From Rhodothermales bacterium (GTDB taxonomy: Bacteria > Bacteroidota > Rhodothermia > Rhodothermales > Bin80): a stretch of 57,701 bases of DNA. This document shows positions 4,364 through 25,422 of this stretch, piece by piece. Under the pieces are notes generated by a model. That model saw only the letters and a list, made by a program, of their open reading frames with translations, did no database searches and was not told the DNA's origin. Both the position numbers and the translations under genes were made by a program. The first letter of the stretch is position 1, and each line of letters begins with the position of its first letter. Location of the stretch: assembly GCA_022821875.1 (NCBI GenBank), contig JAJECV010000099.1:1-57701 (forward strand), written 5' to 3'.

Positions 4364-7114
4364 ATGAATTCTTGGCAGGAATTGCGCTTTGAATCACAGG
4401 GAACGGGAATTTCCGTACCCCTGAGCGAACAGATTAACCTACTGGGCGGCCTGCTAGGCCGTGTTATTAAACGTCAGGCCAGCCCTGAAGTACTGGGTCT
4501 GGTGGAAGAATTACGGCGGTTAACCAAACAGGCAATTACGCAGCATGAACCACATCTGAGAACTCAGGTAATTGAGCGAATCAAAGGGCTGGAGCTTGAG
4601 GAGATTGAATGGCTGCTGCGTGCATTTACCACCTTCTTTTATCTGGTTAATCAAAGTGAGCAGCAGGAGATTATTCGGATTAATCGGGAGCGTGCACGCC
4701 TTCTTCCTGAGGTTGATCGTGTGGAGTCTATTGATGAAGCGGTTGGGATTCTTCGACGTGCAGGTTACAAACTGGAAGATGTCCTGAAGATTGTATCCTG
4801 CCTTGATATACAGCCCACACTGACCGCCCATCCCACCGAGGCACGCCGTAGAACCATTTTGTATAAACAACAGTATCTGGCCTCCCTCATTGACCAGTTA
4901 CGCTATAACAAACCCACCCCGGGCGAACGTGATGAGATTCTTCATCAAATCCATAATCAGGTTGGATTGCTGGTTGCGTCCGATAAAGTCCGTGCAAGGA
5001 AGCCGACTGTGATTGACGAGGTTGAGAATGGACTCCATTACCTTCGAAATGCAATCTGGGAGACGATCCCGCGCATCCATAAGGATGTGGTCAATGCCAT
5101 TGAGCGCCACTACAACCAGACAGTGGATGTACCTGTATTTTTAAAATTCAGGTCATGGATTGGCGGAGACAGGGACGGGAATCCCAATGTGACCGCAGAG
5201 GTCACCCGGGAAACCCTTTCCATGCATCGCAGAACAGCACTTGCCCGCTATCTGGAGGATCTACGTCTGTTGCGCAGAGACCTGAGCATTTCTGAACTGA
5301 AGTTGAAAATCCCTGCGGCGCTCTACGAGTCTGTTGATCGGGATGAAACTGTGCTCCATCTGACTGCTCACGAAGCACGTCAATTTGTGCAGGAACCCTT
5401 CCGGCAGAAAATCACCTTTATGATGCGACGGATCAAGTTGGCCCGTGATGGAGATTATGCGATCTACAACAGCAAGAGTTTTGTCGAAGATCTACGGTTA
5501 CTTGCCCGCGCCCTTACGGAAATGGGATACGAGAACTTGGTATCTCATGGCCGCCTGGGCAAACTCATTGCGCAGGCACAGGCCTTTGGATTCCATATGG
5601 TTTCTCTGGATATACGGCAGCACAGCCGGCATCACGGCAATGCCGTGCGTGCCCTGTTCAAGGTTTCGGGAGTCTGTGATGACTATCTGGGGTTAACCGA
5701 GAATCAAAAACTGGATCTCCTGACAAAAGAACTCCAGAATCCCCGCCCGCTTCTGCCACACGGGGTTGAACTGGCAGAGGATGTTCAGGAAGTCCTTAAC
5801 ACCTTTGCGGTGATCCGGGAGACGGTTGAATGGTCGCCCAATGCCTTGGGGAGTTATGTGATCAGCATGACGCATGCGGTGAGTCATGTGCTGGAGGTTC
5901 TATTACTTGCAAAGGAAACTGGCCTTTGGCAGATTGAGGGGGATACTGTGCGCTCCCCTATTGATGTGGTTCCATTGTTTGAAACCATTGAGGATCTGGA
6001 TCTTTCGGGGGTCTTGCTGACGAATATGTTCGAGCATCCGGTATACAGGAAACATCTTGCAGAGCGCAACATGATGCAAGAGGTGATGCTTGGCTATTCT
6101 GACAGCAATAAGGATGGAGGGTATTGGATGGCAAACTGGGCGCTGCATAAGGCAAAGAGGCACATCGGGAAGATCTGCAAAGATGCCGGGATTGACCTTC
6201 GGCTCTTTCACGGCCGTGGGGGGACGGTTGGCCGTGGTGGTGGACGTGCCGGGCAGGCAATCATTGCAATGCCCCGTATCATCCATAACGGCCGGATCCG
6301 ATTTACGGAGCAGGGGGAGGTGATTTCGTTCAGGTATGCCCTGCCCGCCATTGCGCACCGGCATCTGGAGCAGATTGTACGGGCGATGATGATTGCACCG
6401 CTTCGCGTGGCCGATGTACAGGAGGATGCCGTCATCATGGAACGGATTGCGGACGTATCCATGAAGGCGTACCGGAAACTGATTGACGATCCTGAGTTCT
6501 GGCCCTGGTACGCGTCCTCTACGCCGATTGAGCAGATCAGCCGCCTTCCGATTGCATCCCGTCCCGTTTCTCGCGGCTCGGTGCATCATGTAGATTTTGA
6601 CGACCTGCGTGCGATTCCGTGGGTTTTTGCCTGGACGCAGACTCGCTATATTGTTCCTGGGTGGTATGGTGCCGGGGAGGGGCTTGAAAAGCTTCTGAAC
6701 GATCACGGTTCTGATCTCAGGCGCATGTATAAAGAATGGCCCTTCTTCCAGGCCGTACTTAACAGTGCCCAGCGCGAAATGGCCCGGACCCGGCTGGACG
6801 TTGCATCCGAATATCTAACGCTTGCGTCGGATCCGGAGGCCGGACAGCGGATGAATCAGCGAATTATTGAAGATTACCAAAAGGCGGAGGCCGCCATACT
6901 TGAGATTACCGGTCTGGAGAATCTGTGCGGTCATGCACCGGTGTTCCAGAAATCGGTCAAACTCCGCAACCCTTACTCGGATGTATTGAATCTGCTCCAG
7001 ATTGAATTAATCCGAAGAAGTCGCAATCATCTGGAATCCGACAAGGATCGATTGGCGCATGCATTACTCTTGAGTGTGAACGGAATCGCAGCCGCAATGC
7101 AGAGTACCGGATAG
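4364..7114 (+). CDS. ppc: Phosphoenolpyruvate carboxylase
   Basis: The product converts phosphoenolpyruvate and bicarbonate to oxaloacetate, refilling the TCA cycle. From the ATG at 4364 it has 916 residues, normal for bacterial enzymes; an in-frame TTG at 4325 would add 13 residues with no family character. Catalytic landmarks are all present: the histidine motif PTLTAHPTEARRRT, the arginine/glycine loop FHGRGGTVGRGGGRA, GYSDSNKDGGYW and RPVSRG. The C-terminus (LLLSVNGIAAAMQSTG) keeps the conserved form ending in Gly that enters the active-site region. The last hundred or so codons are duplicated downstream at 9240-9541 as part of the tandem repeat. The gene itself looks intact. Confidence 0.96.
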   Translation: MNSWQELRFESQGTGISVPLSEQINLLGGLLGRVIKRQASPEVLGLVEELRRLTKQAITQHEPHLRTQVIERIKGLELEEIEWLLRAFTTFFYLVNQSEQQEIIRINRERARLLPEVDRVESIDEAVGILRRAGYKLEDVLKIVSCLDIQPTLTAHPTEARRRTILYKQQYLASLIDQLRYNKPTPGERDEILHQIHNQVGLLVASDKVRARKPTVIDEVENGLHYLRNAIWETIPRIHKDVVNAIERHYNQTVDVPVFLKFRSWIGGDRDGNPNVTAEVTRETLSMHRRTALARYLEDLRLLRRDLSISELKLKIPAALYESVDRDETVLHLTAHEARQFVQEPFRQKITFMMRRIKLARDGDYAIYNSKSFVEDLRLLARALTEMGYENLVSHGRLGKLIAQAQAFGFHMVSLDIRQHSRHHGNAVRALFKVSGVCDDYLGLTENQKLDLLTKELQNPRPLLPHGVELAEDVQEVLNTFAVIRETVEWSPNALGSYVISMTHAVSHVLEVLLLAKETGLWQIEGDTVRSPIDVVPLFETIEDLDLSGVLLTNMFEHPVYRKHLAERNMMQEVMLGYSDSNKDGGYWMANWALHKAKRHIGKICKDAGIDLRLFHGRGGTVGRGGGRAGQAIIAMPRIIHNGRIRFTEQGEVISFRYALPAIAHRHLEQIVRAMMIAPLRVADVQEDAVIMERIADVSMKAYRKLIDDPEFWPWYASSTPIEQISRLPIASRPVSRGSVHHVDFDDLRAIPWVFAWTQTRYIVPGWYGAGEGLEKLLNDHGSDLRRMYKEWPFFQAVLNSAQREMARTRLDVASEYLTLASDPEAGQRMNQRIIEDYQKAEAAILEITGLENLCGHAPVFQKSVKLRNPYSDVLNLLQIELIRRSRNHLESDKDRLAHALLLSVNGIAAAMQSTG

Positions 7115-7288
7115 CAGTTCGCGGCCCGTGGCCGTGATGCTTGACCCATTACATGATACCGCACTGCATTTCACGTAGAAGTCAGTGGTGATCGCATCAC
7201 GCGCTTTTGGGGGCCGGACAGTTTTCCCCGCAGAGGGAGCATTCCGCCCTTGCCTCAAAGGAACATTTCACACCGGAATGAATAAAGA

Positions 7289-7309
7289 CACGGGTATCTT
7301 CTATCCGTG
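7289..7309 (+). promoter_or_regulatory. Hairpin just before the first ATPase start codon
   Basis: The arms cacgggta (7289-7296) and tatccgtg (7302-7309) can pair over eight positions, one of them G-U, around a five-base loop. The ATG follows one base later. The same hairpin occurs unchanged in the second unit. It could limit ribosome access or be an operator; which is not known. Confidence 0.45.
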
Positions 7310-7310
7310 A

Positions 7311-8462
7311 ATGATGTACGATCAGGAAATTCAGGCACCTCCCCAAAAAGCATCTGTCCGCAATCGGCTGAAGCGAATCTCTGTAACGGGATACAAAACG
7401 CTCAATCCGCTCACGGACATTGAACTATTGTCAGGGACCGTGCTGATTGGGCCCAATGGTGCAGGGAAGTCCAATTTTATCTCGTTCTTCCGCATGATGC
7501 ACCATGCAATGTCAGGACAGTATCAATTGGCTCGTTACGTCGGCCTACATGGCGGGGCTGGCCGGCTTCTGCATGACGGATATGGTCATACACAAGAAAT
7601 CAAAGCGAAATTAACAATTGAGACCCCCGACGGGGTAAGTGATTACGCGTTCAGTTTATTGCGTGCCGCCAATGACACGCTGATCTTCGATGATGAGCGG
7701 TATCGTTCGAGCACATTTGAATGGGAGGGCAGCGGCGGATGGACTACACTTGGTTCAGGGCATAAAGCTCCGGAAATTTCCAATGCTGCTCTTGAAAATA
7801 AGACGGCAAGGGGCATCCATACTTTCCTGAAGAGAATAGGGATCTACCAGTTTAACAACACATCCAACACTTCCAGGATACGTGGAAAATGGAATGTTAA
7901 CGACAGTCATTGTCTAAAGCATGATGGAGCAAACATTGCCTCAGTACTCTTCCGTTTAAAGATGCACGAACCTTTTTACTATCGGCGCATCATTAAGCAT
8001 ATTCAACTTGTTCTGCCGATGTTTGAGGACTTTGAATTGGAGCCCGAATACGGTTACCTAGTCTTAAAATGGCGGGAAAAAAATACGGATGAGATATTTG
8101 ATGCCTCGCAGGCATCCGACGGTTTCCTTCATATCGTAGCTTTGACCAGTTTACTTCTGCAACCCCCGAAAGACCTGCCTGACATTCTAATCATTGATAC
8201 CCCTGAATTCGGATTGCATCCGCTTGCAGTTAACATCGTAGGTAGTCTGATCGCCACCGCTGCATTGAAAATTCAGATCATTGTGGCAACACAGTCGGTC
8301 GTGATGGTTGACTCCTTTGAAGTTGATAACATCGTGGTTGTTGAGCGACGTGACCGCATATCTACCTTTCGTCGACTTGATCCCCTCGAACTTGATGAAT
8401 GGCTTGAAGACCACGCTCTGTCAACTTTATGGGAGAAGAACGTTTTAGGGGGGAGACCTTGA
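7311..8462 (+). CDS. AAA_21/OLD-like ABC-type ATPase, copy 1 (altered Walker B)
   Basis: This 383-residue ATPase has a P-loop GPNGAGKS (residues 47-54) followed by NFISFF, a signature-like segment DASQASDGFLH (264-274) and a Walker B region IIDTPEFGLHP (294-304). The overall pattern is that of RecF/OLD-type ATPases used in many two-gene defence systems. The usual catalytic glutamate after the Walker B aspartate is Thr297 here (codon 8199-8201), whereas copy 2 has DEPELGLHP. Residue 330 is also Val instead of the Pro found in copy 2 (TQSV against TQSP). The protein may bind ATP but hydrolyse it poorly. Its stop overlaps the start of the DUF4276 gene, so the two are coupled. The first 63 residues differ from copy 2 at only one position. 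Confidence 0.82.
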   Translation: MMYDQEIQAPPQKASVRNRLKRISVTGYKTLNPLTDIELLSGTVLIGPNGAGKSNFISFFRMMHHAMSGQYQLARYVGLHGGAGRLLHDGYGHTQEIKAKLTIETPDGVSDYAFSLLRAANDTLIFDDERYRSSTFEWEGSGGWTTLGSGHKAPEISNAALENKTARGIHTFLKRIGIYQFNNTSNTSRIRGKWNVNDSHCLKHDGANIASVLFRLKMHEPFYYRRIIKHIQLVLPMFEDFELEPEYGYLVLKWREKNTDEIFDASQASDGFLHIVALTSLLLQPPKDLPDILIIDTPEFGLHPLAVNIVGSLIATAALKIQIIVATQSVVMVDSFEVDNIVVVERRDRISTFRRLDPLELDEWLEDHALSTLWEKNVLGGRP

Positions 8463-9151
8463 AGCATTTTCGGATCAATTTTATCGTGGAAGGGCAGACT
8501 GAAGAAGTATTTGTTAATACAGTATTGCAGAGTTACTTTGCTCCCCTGTCTATTGATATTGTAGCCTGCTGTATTACAACCCAGCAGAATCGTCGTGCCC
8601 CCCACATTATACACCGTGGAGGTCTGAGCACATATCGCCATGCATATAACGACATAAAAAAATGGACGAAAAGGGAGAGATCTGGAAATGTCAGATTCAC
8701 GACCATGTTTGATTTGTATGGCCTCCCCGGTGACTTTCCAGGCTACGAGGAGGCCACCAAAGAATTAGATCCCTATCTGCGTGTGAGTATTCTGGAAAGA
8801 GCATTTAAGGAGTCTATCGGTGACTGGCGATTTATTCCGTACATCCAACTTCATGAGTTTGAATCCCTGCTGTTTTCGGATCTGCAAAAACTCGGGGCAG
8901 AGTTTCCGGATTCCTCAGAGAATATCCAGAAATTGACCGAGATAACTTCAAAATTCAGTTCACCTGAACTCATCAACGACGGAGTGACAACAGCCCCGTC
9001 AAAGCGCATCATTGGGGCAATCCCCGATTACAAGATTGGAAAGGCAAGATGGGGACCTATTATCACATCAAAGATCGGAATCCGCACGCTCAAATCACAG
9101 TGTCGGCATTTTCGGGAATGGATTGAGCAGCTGACATCTTCCTGCACCTAA
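8459..9151 (+). CDS. DUF4276-family protein, possible TOPRIM-like nuclease, copy 1
   Basis: The start chosen is TTG at 8459. It overlaps the ATPase stop as TTGA and is preceded by a purine-rich ribosome site (ggggggag); an in-frame ATG at 8429 would lack such a site. The product has 230 residues. The N-terminus INFIVEGQTEE has the hydrophobic-Glu-Gly pattern of TOPRIM nucleases, followed by RFTTMFDLYGLPGDFPGYE and IQLHEFESLLFSD with further acidic residues. I recognise the family as DUF4276, usually encoded beside an AAA ATPase. Nuclease activity is inference from the motif and from paired ATPase-TOPRIM systems. It should act with the ATPase encoded just upstream. Confidence 0.75.
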   Translation: MKHFRINFIVEGQTEEVFVNTVLQSYFAPLSIDIVACCITTQQNRRAPHIIHRGGLSTYRHAYNDIKKWTKRERSGNVRFTTMFDLYGLPGDFPGYEEATKELDPYLRVSILERAFKESIGDWRFIPYIQLHEFESLLFSDLQKLGAEFPDSSENIQKLTEITSKFSSPELINDGVTTAPSKRIIGAIPDYKIGKARWGPIITSKIGIRTLKSQCRHFREWIEQLTSSCT

Positions 9152-9239
9152 AATAGCCTATCGCCATCGTACACAATAATGCGCATTCCAAAGTGTTGTT
9201 ATTTCTCGGCCTCCTTTGAGCAAGAGTTTTTGAGACACG

Positions 9240-9541
9240 ATCTAGCGCTTGCGTAGAATCCAGAGGCCGGACAGTGGTTGAATCATCGAAGTATTGAGGA
9301 TTACCAGAAGGCGGAGGCCGCCATACTTGAGATTACCGGTCTGGAGAATCTGTGCGGTCATGTACCTGTGCTCCGTAAATCGGTCAAACTCCACGACCCT
9401 CACCCGGATGTATTGAATCTGCTCCAGATTGAATACATCCGAAGACAACACAATCATCTGGAATCCGGCAGGGATCAATTGGCGCAAGCATTACTCTTGG
9501 GTGTGAACGGAATCGCAGCCGCAATGCAGAGTACCGGATAG
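9240..9541 (+). pseudogene. Duplicated 3' fragment of ppc
   Basis: This fragment repeats about the last 100 codons of phosphoenolpyruvate carboxylase, arising from the tandem duplication. It has an in-frame TAG near the start, where ppc has TCG within LTLASDPEA, and no upstream coding part. From 9278 (TTG) the frame is open and ends with the same LLGVNGIAAAMQSTG tail. It lacks all catalytic motifs and should not make an enzyme. It marks the left boundary of the second unit. Confidence 0.9.
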
Positions 9542-9711
9542 CAGTTCGCGGCCCATGGCCGTGATGCCTGATCGATTACATGGTACCGCAATGCATTTCA
9601 CGTAGAAGTCCGTGATTGCATCACGCGCTTTTGGGGCCGGACAGTTTTCCCCGCAGAGGGAGCATTCCGCCCTTGCCTCAAAGGAACATTTCACCCCGCA
9701 ATGAATAGAGG

Positions 9712-9732
9712 CACGGGTATCTTCTATCCGTG
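9712..9732 (+). promoter_or_regulatory. Hairpin just before the second ATPase start codon
   Basis: The arms cacgggta (9712-9719) and tatccgtg (9725-9732) are identical to those of the first unit and again end one base before the ATG. The nearby small inverted repeat gtgat-N3-atcac (9612-9624; 7188-7200 in unit 1) also survives with a changed loop base. Retention in both copies hints at a regulatory role. Confidence 0.45.
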
Positions 9733-9733
9733 A

Positions 9734-10885
9734 ATGATGTACGATCAGGAAATTCAGGCGCCTCCCCAAAAAGCATCTGTCCGCAATCGGCTGAAGCGAA
9801 TCTCTGTAACGGGATACAAAACGCTCAATCCACTCACGGACCTTGAACTATTGTCAGGGACCGTGCTGATTGGGCCCAATGGTGCAGGGAAGTCCAATTT
9901 TATCTCGTTCTTCCGCATGATGTACCATGCAATATCTGGACAGGATCAATTGGCTCGTTACGTCGGCCAACATGGCGGGGCTGGCCGGCTTCTGCATGAC
10001 GGACCTGATCACACACAGGAAATCAAAGCAAAATTGACGATTGAGACCCCTGATGAGGTATGTGATTGTGAGTTCGGTTTGTTCTATGCCGCTAATGACA
10101 CACTGGTATTCAATGATGAGCGGTATCGTTTGAGCACATCGAAATTGAGGGGCAACGGGAAGTGGTCTGCGCTCGGAACAGGGTATAAAAAAACAAAACT
10201 CTCCAGTGCTGCTACTGAAAATCGGGCTGCAGGCAGTATCTGTACTTTTCTGAAGGAACTTGTGGTTTATCATTTCCACAACTCGTCCAATAGCGCCTGT
10301 ATTCGTGGAAAATGGAATGCTAATGATAACCGTTATCTAAGGAGCGATGGGGCAAACATTGCACCAGTACTGTTTCGATTAAAAACACAGGAAAATCATC
10401 GTTACCCCCTTATCATTAATCATATCCGACTTGTTCTGCCGATGTTTGACGATTTTGTGCTGGAACCGGAACATGGCTATTTAACTTTGAAATGGCGCGA
10501 AAAAGACACGAATAAGGTATTTGATGCTTCGCAGGCATCCGGCGGGTTCCTGCATATCGTCACGCTTGTCACTCTACTTCTACAACCATCGGATGATTTA
10601 CCCGACATTCTAATCCTTGACGAACCTGAACTCGGATTACATCCATACGCAAGTGGGATCATTGGTAATCTGATCGCTTCCGCAGCATTGGATGTTCAAG
10701 TCATTGTGGCAACACAGTCACCTATAATGATTAATTCCTTTGATGTCAAAGACATCGTGGTTGTTGAGCGGCATGACCGTGCATCCACCTTTCGCAGACT
10801 TGACCCCCTCGAACTTGATGAATGGCTTGAAGACCATGCTCTGTCAACTTTATGGGAAAAGAATGTCTTCGGAGGAAACCTTTGA
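9734..10885 (+). CDS. AAA_21/OLD-like ABC-type ATPase, copy 2 (canonical Walker B)
   Basis: This is the 383-residue paralog of the gene at 7311. It has the same P-loop GPNGAGKS and a signature-like segment DASQASGGFLH. Its Walker B region is complete, ILDEPELGLHP, with the catalytic glutamate at residue 297 (codon 10622-10624), followed by ATQSPIM. It is therefore the better candidate for an active ATPase. Residues about 105-235 and parts near 300-345 differ often from copy 1, while the first 63 residues and the block STFRRLDPLELDEWLEDHA are the same. This patchwork suggests gene conversion or selection on particular surfaces. It overlaps the next gene by four bases (TTGA). Confidence 0.85.
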   Translation: MMYDQEIQAPPQKASVRNRLKRISVTGYKTLNPLTDLELLSGTVLIGPNGAGKSNFISFFRMMYHAISGQDQLARYVGQHGGAGRLLHDGPDHTQEIKAKLTIETPDEVCDCEFGLFYAANDTLVFNDERYRLSTSKLRGNGKWSALGTGYKKTKLSSAATENRAAGSICTFLKELVVYHFHNSSNSACIRGKWNANDNRYLRSDGANIAPVLFRLKTQENHRYPLIINHIRLVLPMFDDFVLEPEHGYLTLKWREKDTNKVFDASQASGGFLHIVTLVTLLLQPSDDLPDILILDEPELGLHPYASGIIGNLIASAALDVQVIVATQSPIMINSFDVKDIVVVERHDRASTFRRLDPLELDEWLEDHALSTLWEKNVFGGNL

Positions 10886-11574
10886 AGAATTTTCGGATCA
10901 ATTTTCTTGTAGAAGGGCAAACTGAACAGGGATTCGTCAATAGTGTATTGCGAAATCACTTTGCCCTCTTATCAATTGTCGTCACAGCACGCTGTATTAC
11001 AACCCAGCAGGATCAGCGTGCTCCTCATATTGTACACCGGGGCGGATTGAACACTTACCGCCACGCATATGACGACATGCGGAAATGGACAAAAAGGGAA
11101 AAGGCGGGAAATGTCAGATTCACGACCATGTTTGATTTGTATGGCCTCCCCGGTGACTTTCCAGGCTACGAGGAGGGCACCAAAGAATTAGATCCCTATC
11201 TGCGTGTGAGTATTCTGGAAAAAGCATTTAAGGAATCTATCGGTGACTGGCGATTTATTCCGTACATCCAACTTCATGAGTTTGAAGCTCTGATATTTTC
11301 TGATCTAGATAAGCTTGATACACGGTTCCCAAAGTATTCACAGGAGATTCAGAAATTAGCTGCAACCACCTCAAAACTCAGTTCCCCCGAACTTATTAAT
11401 GACGGATCGGCAACGGCCCCGTCAAAGCGGATCATTGCGGCGATCCCACAATATAAAACTGCAAAGGCATCTCTGGGGCCATCAATCGCATCAGAGATCG
11501 GAATCCCCACGCTCAAATCACAGTGCCGACATTTTCGGGAATGGATTGAGCAGCTGACATCTTCCTGCACCTGA
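10882..11574 (+). CDS. DUF4276-family protein, possible TOPRIM-like nuclease, copy 2
   Basis: This is a 230-residue paralog of the gene at 8459. The TTG start at 10882 overlaps the ATPase stop codon and has a strong ribosome site ggagg at 10871-10875, six bases upstream; this decides against the in-frame ATG at 10852. INFLVEGQTEQ again shows the TOPRIM-like Glu-Gly. The middle block (NVRFTTMFDLYGLPGDFPGY) is identical to copy 1, while the region after IQLHEFEALIFSD is diverged. Both copies are open, so neither is obviously dead. It probably partners the ATPase encoded just before it, but cross-pairing between units is possible. Confidence 0.76.
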   Translation: MKNFRINFLVEGQTEQGFVNSVLRNHFALLSIVVTARCITTQQDQRAPHIVHRGGLNTYRHAYDDMRKWTKREKAGNVRFTTMFDLYGLPGDFPGYEEGTKELDPYLRVSILEKAFKESIGDWRFIPYIQLHEFEALIFSDLDKLDTRFPKYSQEIQKLAATTSKLSSPELINDGSATAPSKRIIAAIPQYKTAKASLGPSIASEIGIPTLKSQCRHFREWIEQLTSSCT

Positions 11575-11873
11575 TTCAAGACGAGATTGTCCCTTGTTGA
11601 GCATAATAATAAGACGGCTTTTTCTCATTATGTCATGTCATAATCTTTGTCTATCGATTCACTGCAACTAAAATTGCACCTCGCCATCGTACACGATGAT
11701 GCGCATTCCAAAGTGTTGTTATTTCTCGGCCTCCTTTGAGCAAGAATTTCTGAGACATATACATTAGATTGCAACATCAACAGATGAACGCACCCATCCC
11801 CCAGTCCATCTTCAGTCAATCTGCGATTACCTTCACATTCATTGGCATCATCAAAATTCATACCCGGTAAATG
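11575..11873. other. Intergenic tail of unit 2
   Basis: The part 11670-11757 matches the stretch downstream of the first DUF4276 gene (9152-9239). The part 11575-11668 is specific to this copy and contains a weak inverted repeat (cataat...attatg). No gene or convincing terminator was seen. The convergent EEP-family gene ends at 11874. Confidence 0.5.
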
Positions 11874-12743: not shown

Positions 12744-15700
12744 CTACCCTGCTACCTCGCCGGCGAGAACTTTCCATAACTGCCTGTACCCACTTCCCGA
12801 TAGGGCTGAATTTTCAGGACATGCATGATTCCATTCATGTTCAGTGAGGTTTTTCAAAAAATTGCGTGCATGAACAACAGAATCTAGGCTATCGGGTTCC
12901 CGGACTCTTTCCCGATAGAGCTTTCCAAGATTTTCTGCAACACTTCTAGGCACAGCATTCATCCGCATCAATACCGCATCTTCGGTTCGGACCCCATGAT
13001 AAATCATTGCCGGGAGTACATTCATCCTGCGATGATCAGCCTCAGACAGATTACGGAAGTCACGGCGGCAAATGTGACTTAACGCAGCAATTCCCCAAGT
13101 TCCATTATTAGCAATATTCTGATAAATTACTTTGCAGGCATCTGTAATTGCCTGAATTCCATCCTCATCGCCATGCTCTCTACGAAAGTACTTCTGTGCA
13201 ATTACATTGATTGCCTTACCATTTACCCAGTCACGCGTAATCTCAGATATTCGCTCTTCTCTGGAACCTTGACCCTGGATACTTTCCAGATGCCGCTTCA
13301 ATTGTGGCACATTCAGCATTACCCCATACAAATCGGCCATCCTGCTGTCATTGCCGAAAAGACTTTCAGGTGTCCAATCTGAAGAAATGAACGGAGATTC
13401 AAATTCCCGAAGTTGGCGTGATGCCTTACTTACACCTTCTGGCGAAAAGCCCGTTGAATCTGCAAGTTCAGCGATATAACCGGGTTTTCTGGAAAGTTCG
13501 TAGATATAGGAGCGCGTAGCCTCCAATAATGCTTTAGCCTTGTCCTGTTGTGATGGATTATTGTGGAGTGACACATAACCAAAGGTACACCGAAGCAGTT
13601 GTTCCGATTCTGACAACACCGCATCTAAATTCTTCTTTTCCGCCCACAGATGTGCGATATAGCAGCGGAAATCTTCCCATTGATCCTGCCAGAGTACTTT
13701 AGAGAGATTTGATAATTCTCCAATCTCGGCAAGCCTGTCTAGCTGAGATACAAGTCTGGACACTAAATTATCCGTGCTTTGTCCCAGAAACTTAACTAAA
13801 GATTCCCGATTCCCCCCTTCGGCAAGACCAACAACTCCAACACTGTCATGATTAATCCGACCCGCACGCCCCGCAAGATTCCAGAATTCACGGAACGACA
13901 TTTCCTTCCCATAAGGATATTTATTGGTCTGTAGAAAAACCGATGAGACCGGGAAATTAATGCCTTGTGCAATCGTAGTAGTCGCGCATAGAACCTTGAG
14001 AAATCCTCTCTCCGCCAGCCATTCTATGAGATTGCGTGTATCATCGGACAGCCCCGAATGATGGACTCCCACGCCCTTCTTCAAGGTATCTATAAGTTGG
14101 AAGTCTGGACTGATTTCGGCGCTGAGAAATTCTTGGACAAGTTTGATCTCCGGTGGAAGCGGATTAAGGTCATGAAGAGAATTGGCGGCAGTTTTTGCCA
14201 TACTCCAAACCGTAGGAATCTTGTTTGCAATAGCGATGCTGGTGCCACGCTCTGACATAATTGTGGCCATTGCCGCTGTCTGAAGCCCCTGGCCTTTCTG
14301 TTTATCGTTGGAGATTACATGACTCTTAGGAACATTGACAGGTCTGACACCTCCGACACGATGTTTGCCGTGAAGCGACATTGTTTTTGAGGTCGCAATC
14401 AGTGTCTCAAAATTAAGATGCCAGCCGGCACGCTCATCATTGTTGGGAGAGGTACTGTAGATCCCGATGATCCGCTCATTGGGTTTCCAGGGTGTCGTGC
14501 CTAAACTTATTGATCTTCCTGCATTCACATCTTGTGCCAACCACCGTGCCACGGACTCAGTCCCATCTATATCCGGCATGAGAAGCAGGAAATTTGCCCG
14601 CGGGCAATCCATTTTCACCGTAGCGAGCAATAACTCAATACGCAGTCCCCGCCCTTCGCTTTCAAGATTATGGGCTTCGTCCATCACCAATAAAGCCAAT
14701 GGACGATCTTGTATCTTCTTGTTGCGAATAACAAGCGATAGTTTTTCAGGCGTGGCGACAAGAATATCAAACGGTTGTTTGGTTTCACTCAATAATTCAT
14801 CTTCAAATTGATCCACATCAATTGCAGCCGTCAACTGCTCAACTTGAATATTGATGGGGTTGAAGTCTGTTCTCAACCTGCGGGCAATCTGTGTGCACAG
14901 CGCACGCGTTGGAGCCACATAAGCAATCCATCCTTTCTCAGCATTGAATTGATTAAGTGCTTGAAGAATACGGAATTGTGCAAGGAGTGTTTTTCCGCCT
15001 GAAGTAGGCAAGTCAATCACTACAGCAGTCTTGGCTTGGTCTAAAAGCCCTTGCTCTAAAAGCGCCGCACGCTGGGGAGGGAGAAGTTCAAACATTGCAT
15101 AATGTTGACGCCTCGTTAGCAAACGAACAAAATCTGTTGTCCGTGAATTAACTGCACGTGTAGACCACCACAAAGAATTGGTGATCATAATTCGCGCAGC
15201 TGCGTACATCCATCGAAGGATTACGTCATGTTGCACATCCCCTGAAGCCGCCGCGGCCTGAATGGCACTGTTAAAGTGTTTTTCAATCAATCCAAAGGGA
15301 TTAGCCGGTTGCCCCTGCAGCATATAAGTAGCCAGAATCTCCGTTCCCCTTGCCCAGTGGTATAGTGCCACAAGCCGTAAGGCCATTGCTCGATCATTCT
15401 CGTGAGAACTATTACTTAGCGAAGTTTCCTCAAACTGCTTTTGCTCCCTGCGCAATTCTGCAATGATCCTGCTAATTTGATAAAGGTCATCCCCGCTATC
15501 CTTACGAAATAATTGAATCCAGCAGACAAAAATTCTATACAGCAAGCGGCGGTCCCACGAAACTCCCTCAACACTCGGAGACTGGATATTGTCCTCATTC
15601 TCCTTATACCAGCGGCGAAGATCAGGCCAACGATCTCCACAGTAGGCTATGGCAGAAAGTCGCAATACAAAAAATAGACGCTCGTGGCATTCAACGGAAA

Positions 15701-16019
15701 CCGGAAGCAAACGATGAATGGCAAATGCACTGAATGACGCAGCGACGGCTTGATTACGTAGTTCCATATTCTCTCCCGAGGGCCGACTCAACTCTTCGAG
15801 CCCTTCCATTGCCGCCACCTCAAATGCAAGACAAATACGTTCCAATAATGTGTTATCTCCATCACCCAGGGAAAACGAAAAAGTAATCTGTTTACCCAAT
15901 GCCTGATGAGCCAGACGCTGGTTCACAAATTCCTCGGCAAGTTCTAGTTCTTCCTTACCTATTGCGTTCAAAGCCCAATGATTCTTGAGCGCATCAAGAG
16001 ACTCCCCGGATAGACTCAT
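12744..16019 (-). CDS. hamB: HamB-like superfamily 2 helicase of a Hachiman system
   Basis: This 1091-residue protein has a full set of SF2 helicase motifs: motif I VIDLPTSGGKTLLA, Ia YVAPTRALCTQIA, II VMDEAHNLESEGRG, V CATTTIAQGINFPVS and VI FWNLAGRAGRINHDS. The order and the LAGRAGR form resemble Ski2/Brr2-type helicases, and the size fits HamB. In Hachiman defence, HamB forms a complex with the nuclease HamA, senses damaged or unusual DNA ends and releases HamA to degrade DNA. Its ATG overlaps the stop of the hamA frame (ATGA), so translation is coupled. The gene appears intact. The name rests on its architecture and on the partner gene, not on a search. Confidence 0.82.
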   Translation of the reverse strand: MSLSGESLDALKNHWALNAIGKEELELAEEFVNQRLAHQALGKQITFSFSLGDGDNTLLERICLAFEVAAMEGLEELSRPSGENMELRNQAVAASFSAFAIHRLLPVSVECHERLFFVLRLSAIAYCGDRWPDLRRWYKENEDNIQSPSVEGVSWDRRLLYRIFVCWIQLFRKDSGDDLYQISRIIAELRREQKQFEETSLSNSSHENDRAMALRLVALYHWARGTEILATYMLQGQPANPFGLIEKHFNSAIQAAAASGDVQHDVILRWMYAAARIMITNSLWWSTRAVNSRTTDFVRLLTRRQHYAMFELLPPQRAALLEQGLLDQAKTAVVIDLPTSGGKTLLAQFRILQALNQFNAEKGWIAYVAPTRALCTQIARRLRTDFNPINIQVEQLTAAIDVDQFEDELLSETKQPFDILVATPEKLSLVIRNKKIQDRPLALLVMDEAHNLESEGRGLRIELLLATVKMDCPRANFLLLMPDIDGTESVARWLAQDVNAGRSISLGTTPWKPNERIIGIYSTSPNNDERAGWHLNFETLIATSKTMSLHGKHRVGGVRPVNVPKSHVISNDKQKGQGLQTAAMATIMSERGTSIAIANKIPTVWSMAKTAANSLHDLNPLPPEIKLVQEFLSAEISPDFQLIDTLKKGVGVHHSGLSDDTRNLIEWLAERGFLKVLCATTTIAQGINFPVSSVFLQTNKYPYGKEMSFREFWNLAGRAGRINHDSVGVVGLAEGGNRESLVKFLGQSTDNLVSRLVSQLDRLAEIGELSNLSKVLWQDQWEDFRCYIAHLWAEKKNLDAVLSESEQLLRCTFGYVSLHNNPSQQDKAKALLEATRSYIYELSRKPGYIAELADSTGFSPEGVSKASRQLREFESPFISSDWTPESLFGNDSRMADLYGVMLNVPQLKRHLESIQGQGSREERISEITRDWVNGKAINVIAQKYFRREHGDEDGIQAITDACKVIYQNIANNGTWGIAALSHICRRDFRNLSEADHRRMNVLPAMIYHGVRTEDAVLMRMNAVPRSVAENLGKLYRERVREPDSLDSVVHARNFLKNLTEHEWNHACPENSALSGSGYRQLWKVLAGEVAG

Positions 16020-16831
16020 GACGTAGTATCCCTTCTGTGATTGATAAGAACATTACCTGCATCGCTCAGACGGGCACCTTGTATATACAAGCCGAATACT
16101 TCTATCACCATACTGTCTGGACAATTCCGGCCGATATCGCGGACTGTCCCCTTTAAATCCATCTCATTTGGTGAGACATCCCGTACCAGGAATCCAAACA
16201 TTCGAACATCGGACTGATTGGCTAAATATCGTTTAGCCGCTTCTTGAAAGCGTTCTTTCCAGTCAGCCCGCACAGCTCGGTGAGCTAAATATCGAAACAG
16301 ATCATCCCGTATAGCAGTGTCATCGCGAATATCTTCGAGTTGCTTTCTGAGGCCTTCATCACCGTACATCGCCCTTGGTGGATACTGTTCTTCCGAAGAT
16401 GTCTTAACTTCACCAAAAGCTATTCAATTACCATGAGCGTCAACATGTAAACCAACCAGATCTGCTCCTGGAAGGCTGGCCCCCTGTTTCCGCATGTCAC
16501 GCTCTACTGACCATGGAAAATAACAGTTACGATGAGTAACCAGCCAGGCTTCCGCAATCGCCTCTCCTACTTGCCATGGCTTTGGATACCTTGAACCTGA
16601 AAAAATGCGGTTCAGGCGAGTTTGATCAAAATGAGTGTCGGTGAACCCACTCAACATCTCTTCCACTTCGCCCCTTCCCGCATCATCAAATAAAACTGCA
16701 GCCACCGGACCCCGCAGTGCCGCACTGTACTCCTCGCCTGACCATTTCAGGCCAATTCCAATGCACGGCAGAGCACCGGTTGTATAAACCTCTTCACCTC
16801 TTGCCAATGTCATAATTTCTCCAGCGTCCAT
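16016..16831 (-). pseudogene. hamA: HamA-like (DUF1837) nuclease gene interrupted by one in-frame TGA
   Basis: The frame runs 271 codons from the ATG at 16831 to a stop overlapping hamB, the expected size and position of HamA. It is broken by a single TGA at 16424-16426, codon 136. Both sides are in the same frame, with no shift. The residues before the stop, PGADLVGLHVDAHGN, carry the likely first catalytic aspartate, and those right after, IAFGEVKTSSEEQY, carry the Glu-x-Lys of a PD-(D/E)xK nuclease. The stop therefore separates the active site. Possible products are a 135-residue N-terminal part and a 117-residue part restarting at 16369. Mutation (for example CGA to TGA), read-through or sequencing error are all possible. 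TGA ends many other genes here, so it is not a general sense codon. Confidence 0.75.
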
Positions 16832-24639: not shown

Positions 24640-25422
24640 TTGTCCAGTGACAATATGTCCAAGCACTATCTAGTGGTGAGCACCACAAGCAAGTTCAGAT
24701 CCAATCCAGAGGCAGTTCTATCGTATCTGGATCTCTGCATGCTCCGCATCAACAAGTGTCTCATGCAGTTGGAATTGATCCAGAAGCGATTTCCCGACTC
24801 GGAATGGGCGCAGGAACTTCAAATCCTCTCCGAACAGGCCATGAAGCTTCACGATCAGGTTCGGCGACGTTTAGTGGAAGGCGAGGATATCCCGAATGAG
24901 GAGAAGATTTACTCGTTACATGCCCCGCATACGCGCTGGATCCGCAAGGGGAAGTCTCGTCCGAAGGAAGTGGAATTGGGGGTTCCGGTAACGATTTGTC
25001 AGAGTCCGCTCGGTCTGATTTTGTGGTGGAAGATCATGTGGACGGAGGTGGTACGGAAAATCCTGGAACGCTATCCGACGATCCATACACTCAGTTTTGA
25101 TCGTGGCTTCTCTTCGAAAGAGAATCTGGAAGCGATCCAGTCCCTGTTGCCGCATCCGATCCTTCCGAAGAAGGGCCGTCTCAGCAAGGCGGATCGGGAA
25201 CGCCAATCCACGCCGGAATTCAAGAAGGCACGTAAGCAACATGTCCTCATTGAATCCCGGATCAACTGTCTGGAGCATCATGGCGGCGACCGGGTTCGCA
25301 CCAAAGGTGGCAAGGAGGGATTTGCACGAACGGTGGGCGCAAGCATTGTTGCGACCAATCTGTGTCAGATTGGAAGGTTCCTGATGGCGCAGGATCGGGA
25401 ACAGTTGCGGCAGGCAGCGTAA
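24640..25422 (+). pseudogene. Truncated ISNCY-like DDE transposase
   Basis: This 260-residue open frame matches the C-terminal part of ISNCY-family transposases. HAPHTRWIRKGKSRPKEVEL, SFDRGFSSKENLEAI (second catalytic aspartate), PKKGRLSKADRERQSTPEFK and HVLIESRINCLEHHGGDR (catalytic glutamate) are all characteristic. The N-terminal DNA-binding region and the first catalytic aspartate are missing, so it should be inactive. The TTG start has aaggag nine bases before it; an ATG follows at 24655. Clear inverted terminal repeats were not found. It separates the arg operon from the ilv-leu operon's 3' end. Confidence 0.75.

Follow-up and report, generated by a model that had tools for sequence, protein, structure and literature searches.

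Hachiman, as described for HamAB of E. coli ECOR31 (structures 8VX9, 8VXA, and 8VXY; PMC12278908), consists of a nuclease gene followed by a helicase gene with overlapping ends. HamA has a PD-(D/E)xK fold with an Asp and a Glu-x-Lys motif, and E. coli HamA mutants in the Glu-x-Lys motif lose defence. HamB carries an N-terminal HamA-interacting domain, which is reported for all HamBs and reported as missing from close Ski2 relatives. The mechanism by which HamB restrains and then releases HamA has been shown only for E. coli HamAB, where expression is mildly toxic and activation leads to degradation of host DNA; the authors of that study asked whether translocation by HamB adds to immunity beyond damage sensing and release of HamA (PMC12278908). 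Two further systems bear on the comparison. In AbpAB (8ZUE), the HamA-like domain of AbpA is catalytically dead (PMC12278908), and AbpA adds an active N-terminal nuclease domain. PDC-M23A/B is listed in PADLOC as a phage defence candidate with no Hachiman label, and our literature search returned no paper under the name PDC-M23.

We analysed a 57,701-nucleotide stretch of DNA from a Rhodothermales bacterium (contig JAJECV010000099.1; hereafter the window), in which a gene pair shares with Hachiman the nuclease-helicase order and the overlapping ends. It differs from Hachiman in that its HamA is about 13% identical and lies under the Pfam HamA cut-off, and in that a stop codon interrupts the nuclease gene. 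The same interruption of the A gene sets it apart from PDC-M23A/B, and, unlike in AbpAB, the lost nuclease has no replacement in the window. We consider it very probable that the operon belongs to a divergent Hachiman-type (PDC-M23) system and that a nonsense mutation inactivated its HamA-like effector. Taken alone, the finding amounts to one decayed defence gene.

The interrupted nuclease gene and its helicase partner

Translation of the minus-strand frame from 16831 to 16016 confirmed the single in-frame TGA that the original prediction had placed there. The TGA is flanked by 135 codons on either side, the second run ending at a native TGA (16018-16016), and the residues around it, GLHVDAHGN, stop, IAFGEVKTSSEE, are identical to those quoted earlier. 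Its predicted position between the Asp of GADLVG and the Glu-x-Lys of GEVK was likewise correct, as were the overlap with an intact hamB: the hamB ATG at 16019 overlaps the hamA stop (ATGA), and all 1091 codons are open (Table 1). By comparison with relatives, the native start of the hamA-like gene may be codon 8 (16810). In a PADLOC profile search, PDLC04529 (PDC-M23A) matched the 5' half at 2.5e-38 (profile positions 1-126) and the 3' half at 1.4e-44 (132-250), with the premature stop at profile position 130 and no insertion or deletion around it. Because both halves match the same profile without an indel, the interrupted frame is more than a chance arrangement.

Table 1. Features of the hamA-like and hamB-like genes in the window and hamA lesions in related loci
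Locus	Feature	Position	Strand
Window	hamB-like (PDC-M23B) Ski2-type helicase, 1091 aa, intact, ATGA overlap with hamA stop	12744..16019	-
Window	hamA-like 3' half, 135 codons and native stop, with Glu141-x-Lys143 (GEVK, about 16411-16403)	16016..16423	-
Window (mapped from G392)	Insertion point of the G392 IS110-family element in hamA; the window itself has no insertion	16076..16082	-
Window	Premature in-frame TGA, codon 136 (the hamA lesion of this genome, G000)	16424..16426	-
Window	hamA-like (PDC-M23A) 5' half, 135 codons, with Glu90 (VGEAIAE) and Asp124 (GADLVG)	16427..16831	-
G397:C3	hamA lesion: TAG stop at codon 80		
G215:C64	hamA lesion: TAG at codon 247		
G392	hamA lesion: IS110-family insertion about 20-25 residues before the end, in-frame fusion		

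The predicted product is a truncated 135-residue HamA-like protein that lacks the part of the active site contributed by Glu-x-Lys. Since the stop splits the motifs and the only ATG re-start in the 3' half (16369, codon 155) lies beyond GEVK, the motif order suggests that the locus should make no complete active site and so no active nuclease. The 117-codon frame opened by this ATG reaches hamB, as would suit a nuclease that assembles from two separately translated halves. However, a chain re-started there begins after GEVK and has no Glu-x-Lys, the only purine-rich stretch is about 3 bases from the ATG, and the stop is followed directly by ATA, which seldom serves as a start. A split nuclease by re-initiation was ruled out on motif order, and we give re-assembly of halves a negligible probability.

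The PF08878 (HamA/DUF1837) profile, with which the HamA call was to be checked, gave no match to either half or anywhere in the genome, and the best PDC-M23A relatives, at 21.8 and 14.4 bits, stayed below its cut-off of 25. A comparison of small alignments by hhalign yielded a probability of 8.9%, and a PDB profile search placed HamA at E = 0.26. Structure prediction was chosen after these sequence-only comparisons, with the intact relative G258 (AlphaFold, alignment A1, pLDDT 81.5) standing in for the interrupted gene. The G258 model aligned with HamA 8VX9 over 240 residues (Z 17.5), followed by 8VXY (Z 14.8), the C-terminal part of AbpA (Z 13.5), and the next unrelated protein, the type IIS enzyme PaqCI (Z 6.3); in a Foldseek search of the PDB, its two best matches were both HamA. 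The Asp of GADLVG and the Glu and Lys of GEVK were invariant across ten intact relatives. The call of a HamA-like nuclease thus stands as to fold and fails as to Pfam family, the closest named family being PADLOC PDC-M23A.

The helicase matched the PDC-M23B profile at 1379 bits, and the PADLOC HamB profiles ranked next with up to 186 bits. HamB was the top structural match of its predicted structure, which aligned with solved HamB from residue 9 to 1090 (927-944 residues aligned), with the N-terminal domain covered, whereas nearly all non-HamB Ski2-like helicases aligned with the model only from about residue 307. Because of this difference in span, the N-terminal HamA-interacting domain is probably present, as judged from the model. 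Among its other matches, the model resembled Hel308 and pol theta helicases in fold. Both genes matched their respective PDC-M23A and PDC-M23B profiles, which lie side by side, over nearly the whole profile length, and in the phylum sample strong PDC-M23B matches occurred only in genomes that also matched PDC-M23A. On these predicted structures, PDC-M23 fits best as a divergent system of the Hachiman type, and the PADLOC candidate is now linked to Hachiman via the structure of both subunits. No relatives of the PDC-M23A-type HamA were found on the plasmids searched. Judging from fold and gene pairing, an intact system would most likely work like Hachiman, with HamB scanning DNA and restraining HamA; at damaged ends, HamB would release HamA, and DNA would be degraded.

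The sister species and selective constraint

The same locus was found in a sister species (G392, metagenome-assembled genome JAJECE01), with flanks 95.8% and 97.3% identical. There the codon at the stop site is TGC (Cys), one base apart from the TGA of the window, and the HamA-like protein is otherwise 91% identical. Across the relatives, the residue there is Cys (three relatives), Arg, His, Gln, or another. Read from these alignments, the site is variable, and the TGA arose there by an ordinary nonsense substitution.

The omega of hamA between the window genome and its sister was 0.516 (bootstrap 0.26-1.22; 24 nonsynonymous and 13 synonymous changes) and was similar in both halves, compared with 0.155 (0.085-0.264) for an intact hamA pair of the same phylum, a comparison of small numbers in which the timing is uncertain because the sister gene is itself interrupted. 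The nonsynonymous changes fell about equally on the two lineages. By contrast, the omega of hamB in the same genome pair was 0.154 (0.091-0.251). The constraint on hamA differed from that on hamB (Fisher p = 0.0044) and from that on neighbouring core genes (1.7e-5), whereas hamB was indistinguishable from the latter (p = 0.25). The TGA together with an omega of 0.516 against 0.155 is what was expected of a pseudogene, small as the numbers are. It is possible that hamA evolves faster in this lineage from some other cause. The recent inactivation suggested in the original prediction is nevertheless supported by the Cys codon of the sister species, the otherwise intact frame, and the raised omega, and the best account is that hamA was inactivated at a recent to moderately old date.

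An assembly or consensus error over an intact hamA has to be weighed here, since the genome was assembled from a metagenome in 147 contigs and a single base distinguishes the TGA from the codon of the sister species. One wrong base, however, cannot explain a raised omega over both halves; moreover, the adjoining genes of the window are open and related genomes have stops elsewhere in hamA. We therefore regard such an error as improbable. Programmed or leaky UGA read-through, or selenocysteine insertion, would supply a small dose of full-length nuclease, and the frame that stays open past the stop, with Cys at the site in three relatives as in selenocysteine/cysteine pairs, would fit it. But the site holds no conserved Cys, the TGA is not conserved, relatives carry other stops, hamA is less constrained than in the intact pair, and adjoining genes terminate normally at TGA. 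In addition, the SelB model had no match over cut-off in this genome (95.75% complete), and no tRNA-Sec over the gathering score was found in ten genomes of the genus. The leaky read-through proposed earlier was thus not borne out, and we hold the whole group of recoding readings to be very improbable. Selenocysteine was ruled out because neither SelB nor tRNA-Sec scored over cut-off, and reassignment of UGA because TGA serves as the ordinary stop of the surrounding genes.

Residues 1-252 of the HamA-like protein of the sister species are joined in frame to an IS110-family transposase, giving an open frame of 633 codons (G392:C5, L044:11133-13034); the remaining hamA tail and an intact hamB lie on contig C103.

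Lesions across the family and the retained helicase

In 16 PDC-M23 loci, hamB was open over its full length; 12 of these had an open hamA and four a damaged one, each with a different lesion (Table 1). The search for the same TGA in relatives, which the original prediction had called for, showed that the stop is not common to them and that their genes (G397, G215, and G392) are broken elsewhere. The G392 and G215 lesions cost the protein only its final 20-25 residues or so and may leave activity. No PDC-M23 locus in the survey had hamB alone broken; where hamB contained stops, hamA was also lost or broken (G392:C128 and G396:C84), or the locus reached a contig end (G395:C81). The probability that all four lesions would fall in hamA, if hits were distributed by gene length, is 0.0016, a figure based on few loci and on a comparison made after the pattern was seen. 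Classical HamA (PF08878) had a stop in none of its 19 matches in the phylum, so frequent breakage was seen only in the PDC-M23 family.

A strict order of loss, nuclease before helicase, was suggested by the four hamA-only against zero hamB-only cases and was not upheld in E. coli Hachiman. There, hamA is missing its first 169 bases in two records that cover hamB in full (one of these records was inspected), and in two others hamA is intact and hamB is truncated at its 3' end.

The genome of the window also contains a second, intact PDC-M23 (Hachiman-type) pair (G000:C19, L049:7698-11674), so the cell probably keeps the function. In the counterpart of this second pair in the sister species (G392:C128), most of hamA is gone and hamB has two stops. 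Loss of the nuclease at the window locus would probably have been tolerated or even favoured, given an autoimmune cost and the second copy; such a cost is plausible in view of the mild toxicity of Hachiman expression and the breakdown of host DNA once the system is activated (PMC12278908).

Compatible with inactivation of hamA is a separate function for which the orphan hamB is kept, as a DNA helicase or repair factor free of HamA. The contrast between a relaxed hamA and a hamB constrained like neighbouring core genes would fit such a role, as would the four loci where hamB is intact beside a broken or shortened hamA and the resemblance in fold to Hel308 and pol theta helicases. On the other hand, the hamA losses may simply be recent, the decayed second copies (G392:C128 and G396:C84) have stops in hamB too, and E. 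coli HamA mutants lose defence (PMC12278908). We consider this role unlikely. The literature search on orphan HamB returned nothing useful. Since the same nuclease is shortened elsewhere in related species, the family may repeatedly disarm the effector and keep the sensor. The fuller form of this reading strikes us as rather doubtful: Hachiman-type systems of this bacterial family would be repeatedly disarmed via nuclease loss, and selection would keep the HamB sensor helicase for a role independent of HamA, such as DNA-end processing or blocking phage replication. In any case, an intact HamB beside a dead or shortened HamA provides natural cases that bear on the part of HamB translocation in immunity.

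Other elements of the window

Adjoining ppc, positions 6813-11757 form a tandem duplication with a period of about 2.42 kb, which contains two HEC-01AB-like pairs (7311-9151 and 9734-11574). In front of the second pair, the 3' end of ppc is repeated at 90% identity. The outer parts of the two copies are 90-97% identical, and the ATPase middle only 65-78%. The match of the sister contig to the window ends at 11717. Inspection by eye further identified a transposase-like frame directly after the arginine genes (24640-25422), probably an IS remnant, and, at the window edge, a TnpB-like protein with zinc-ribbon CxxC motifs (72-965).
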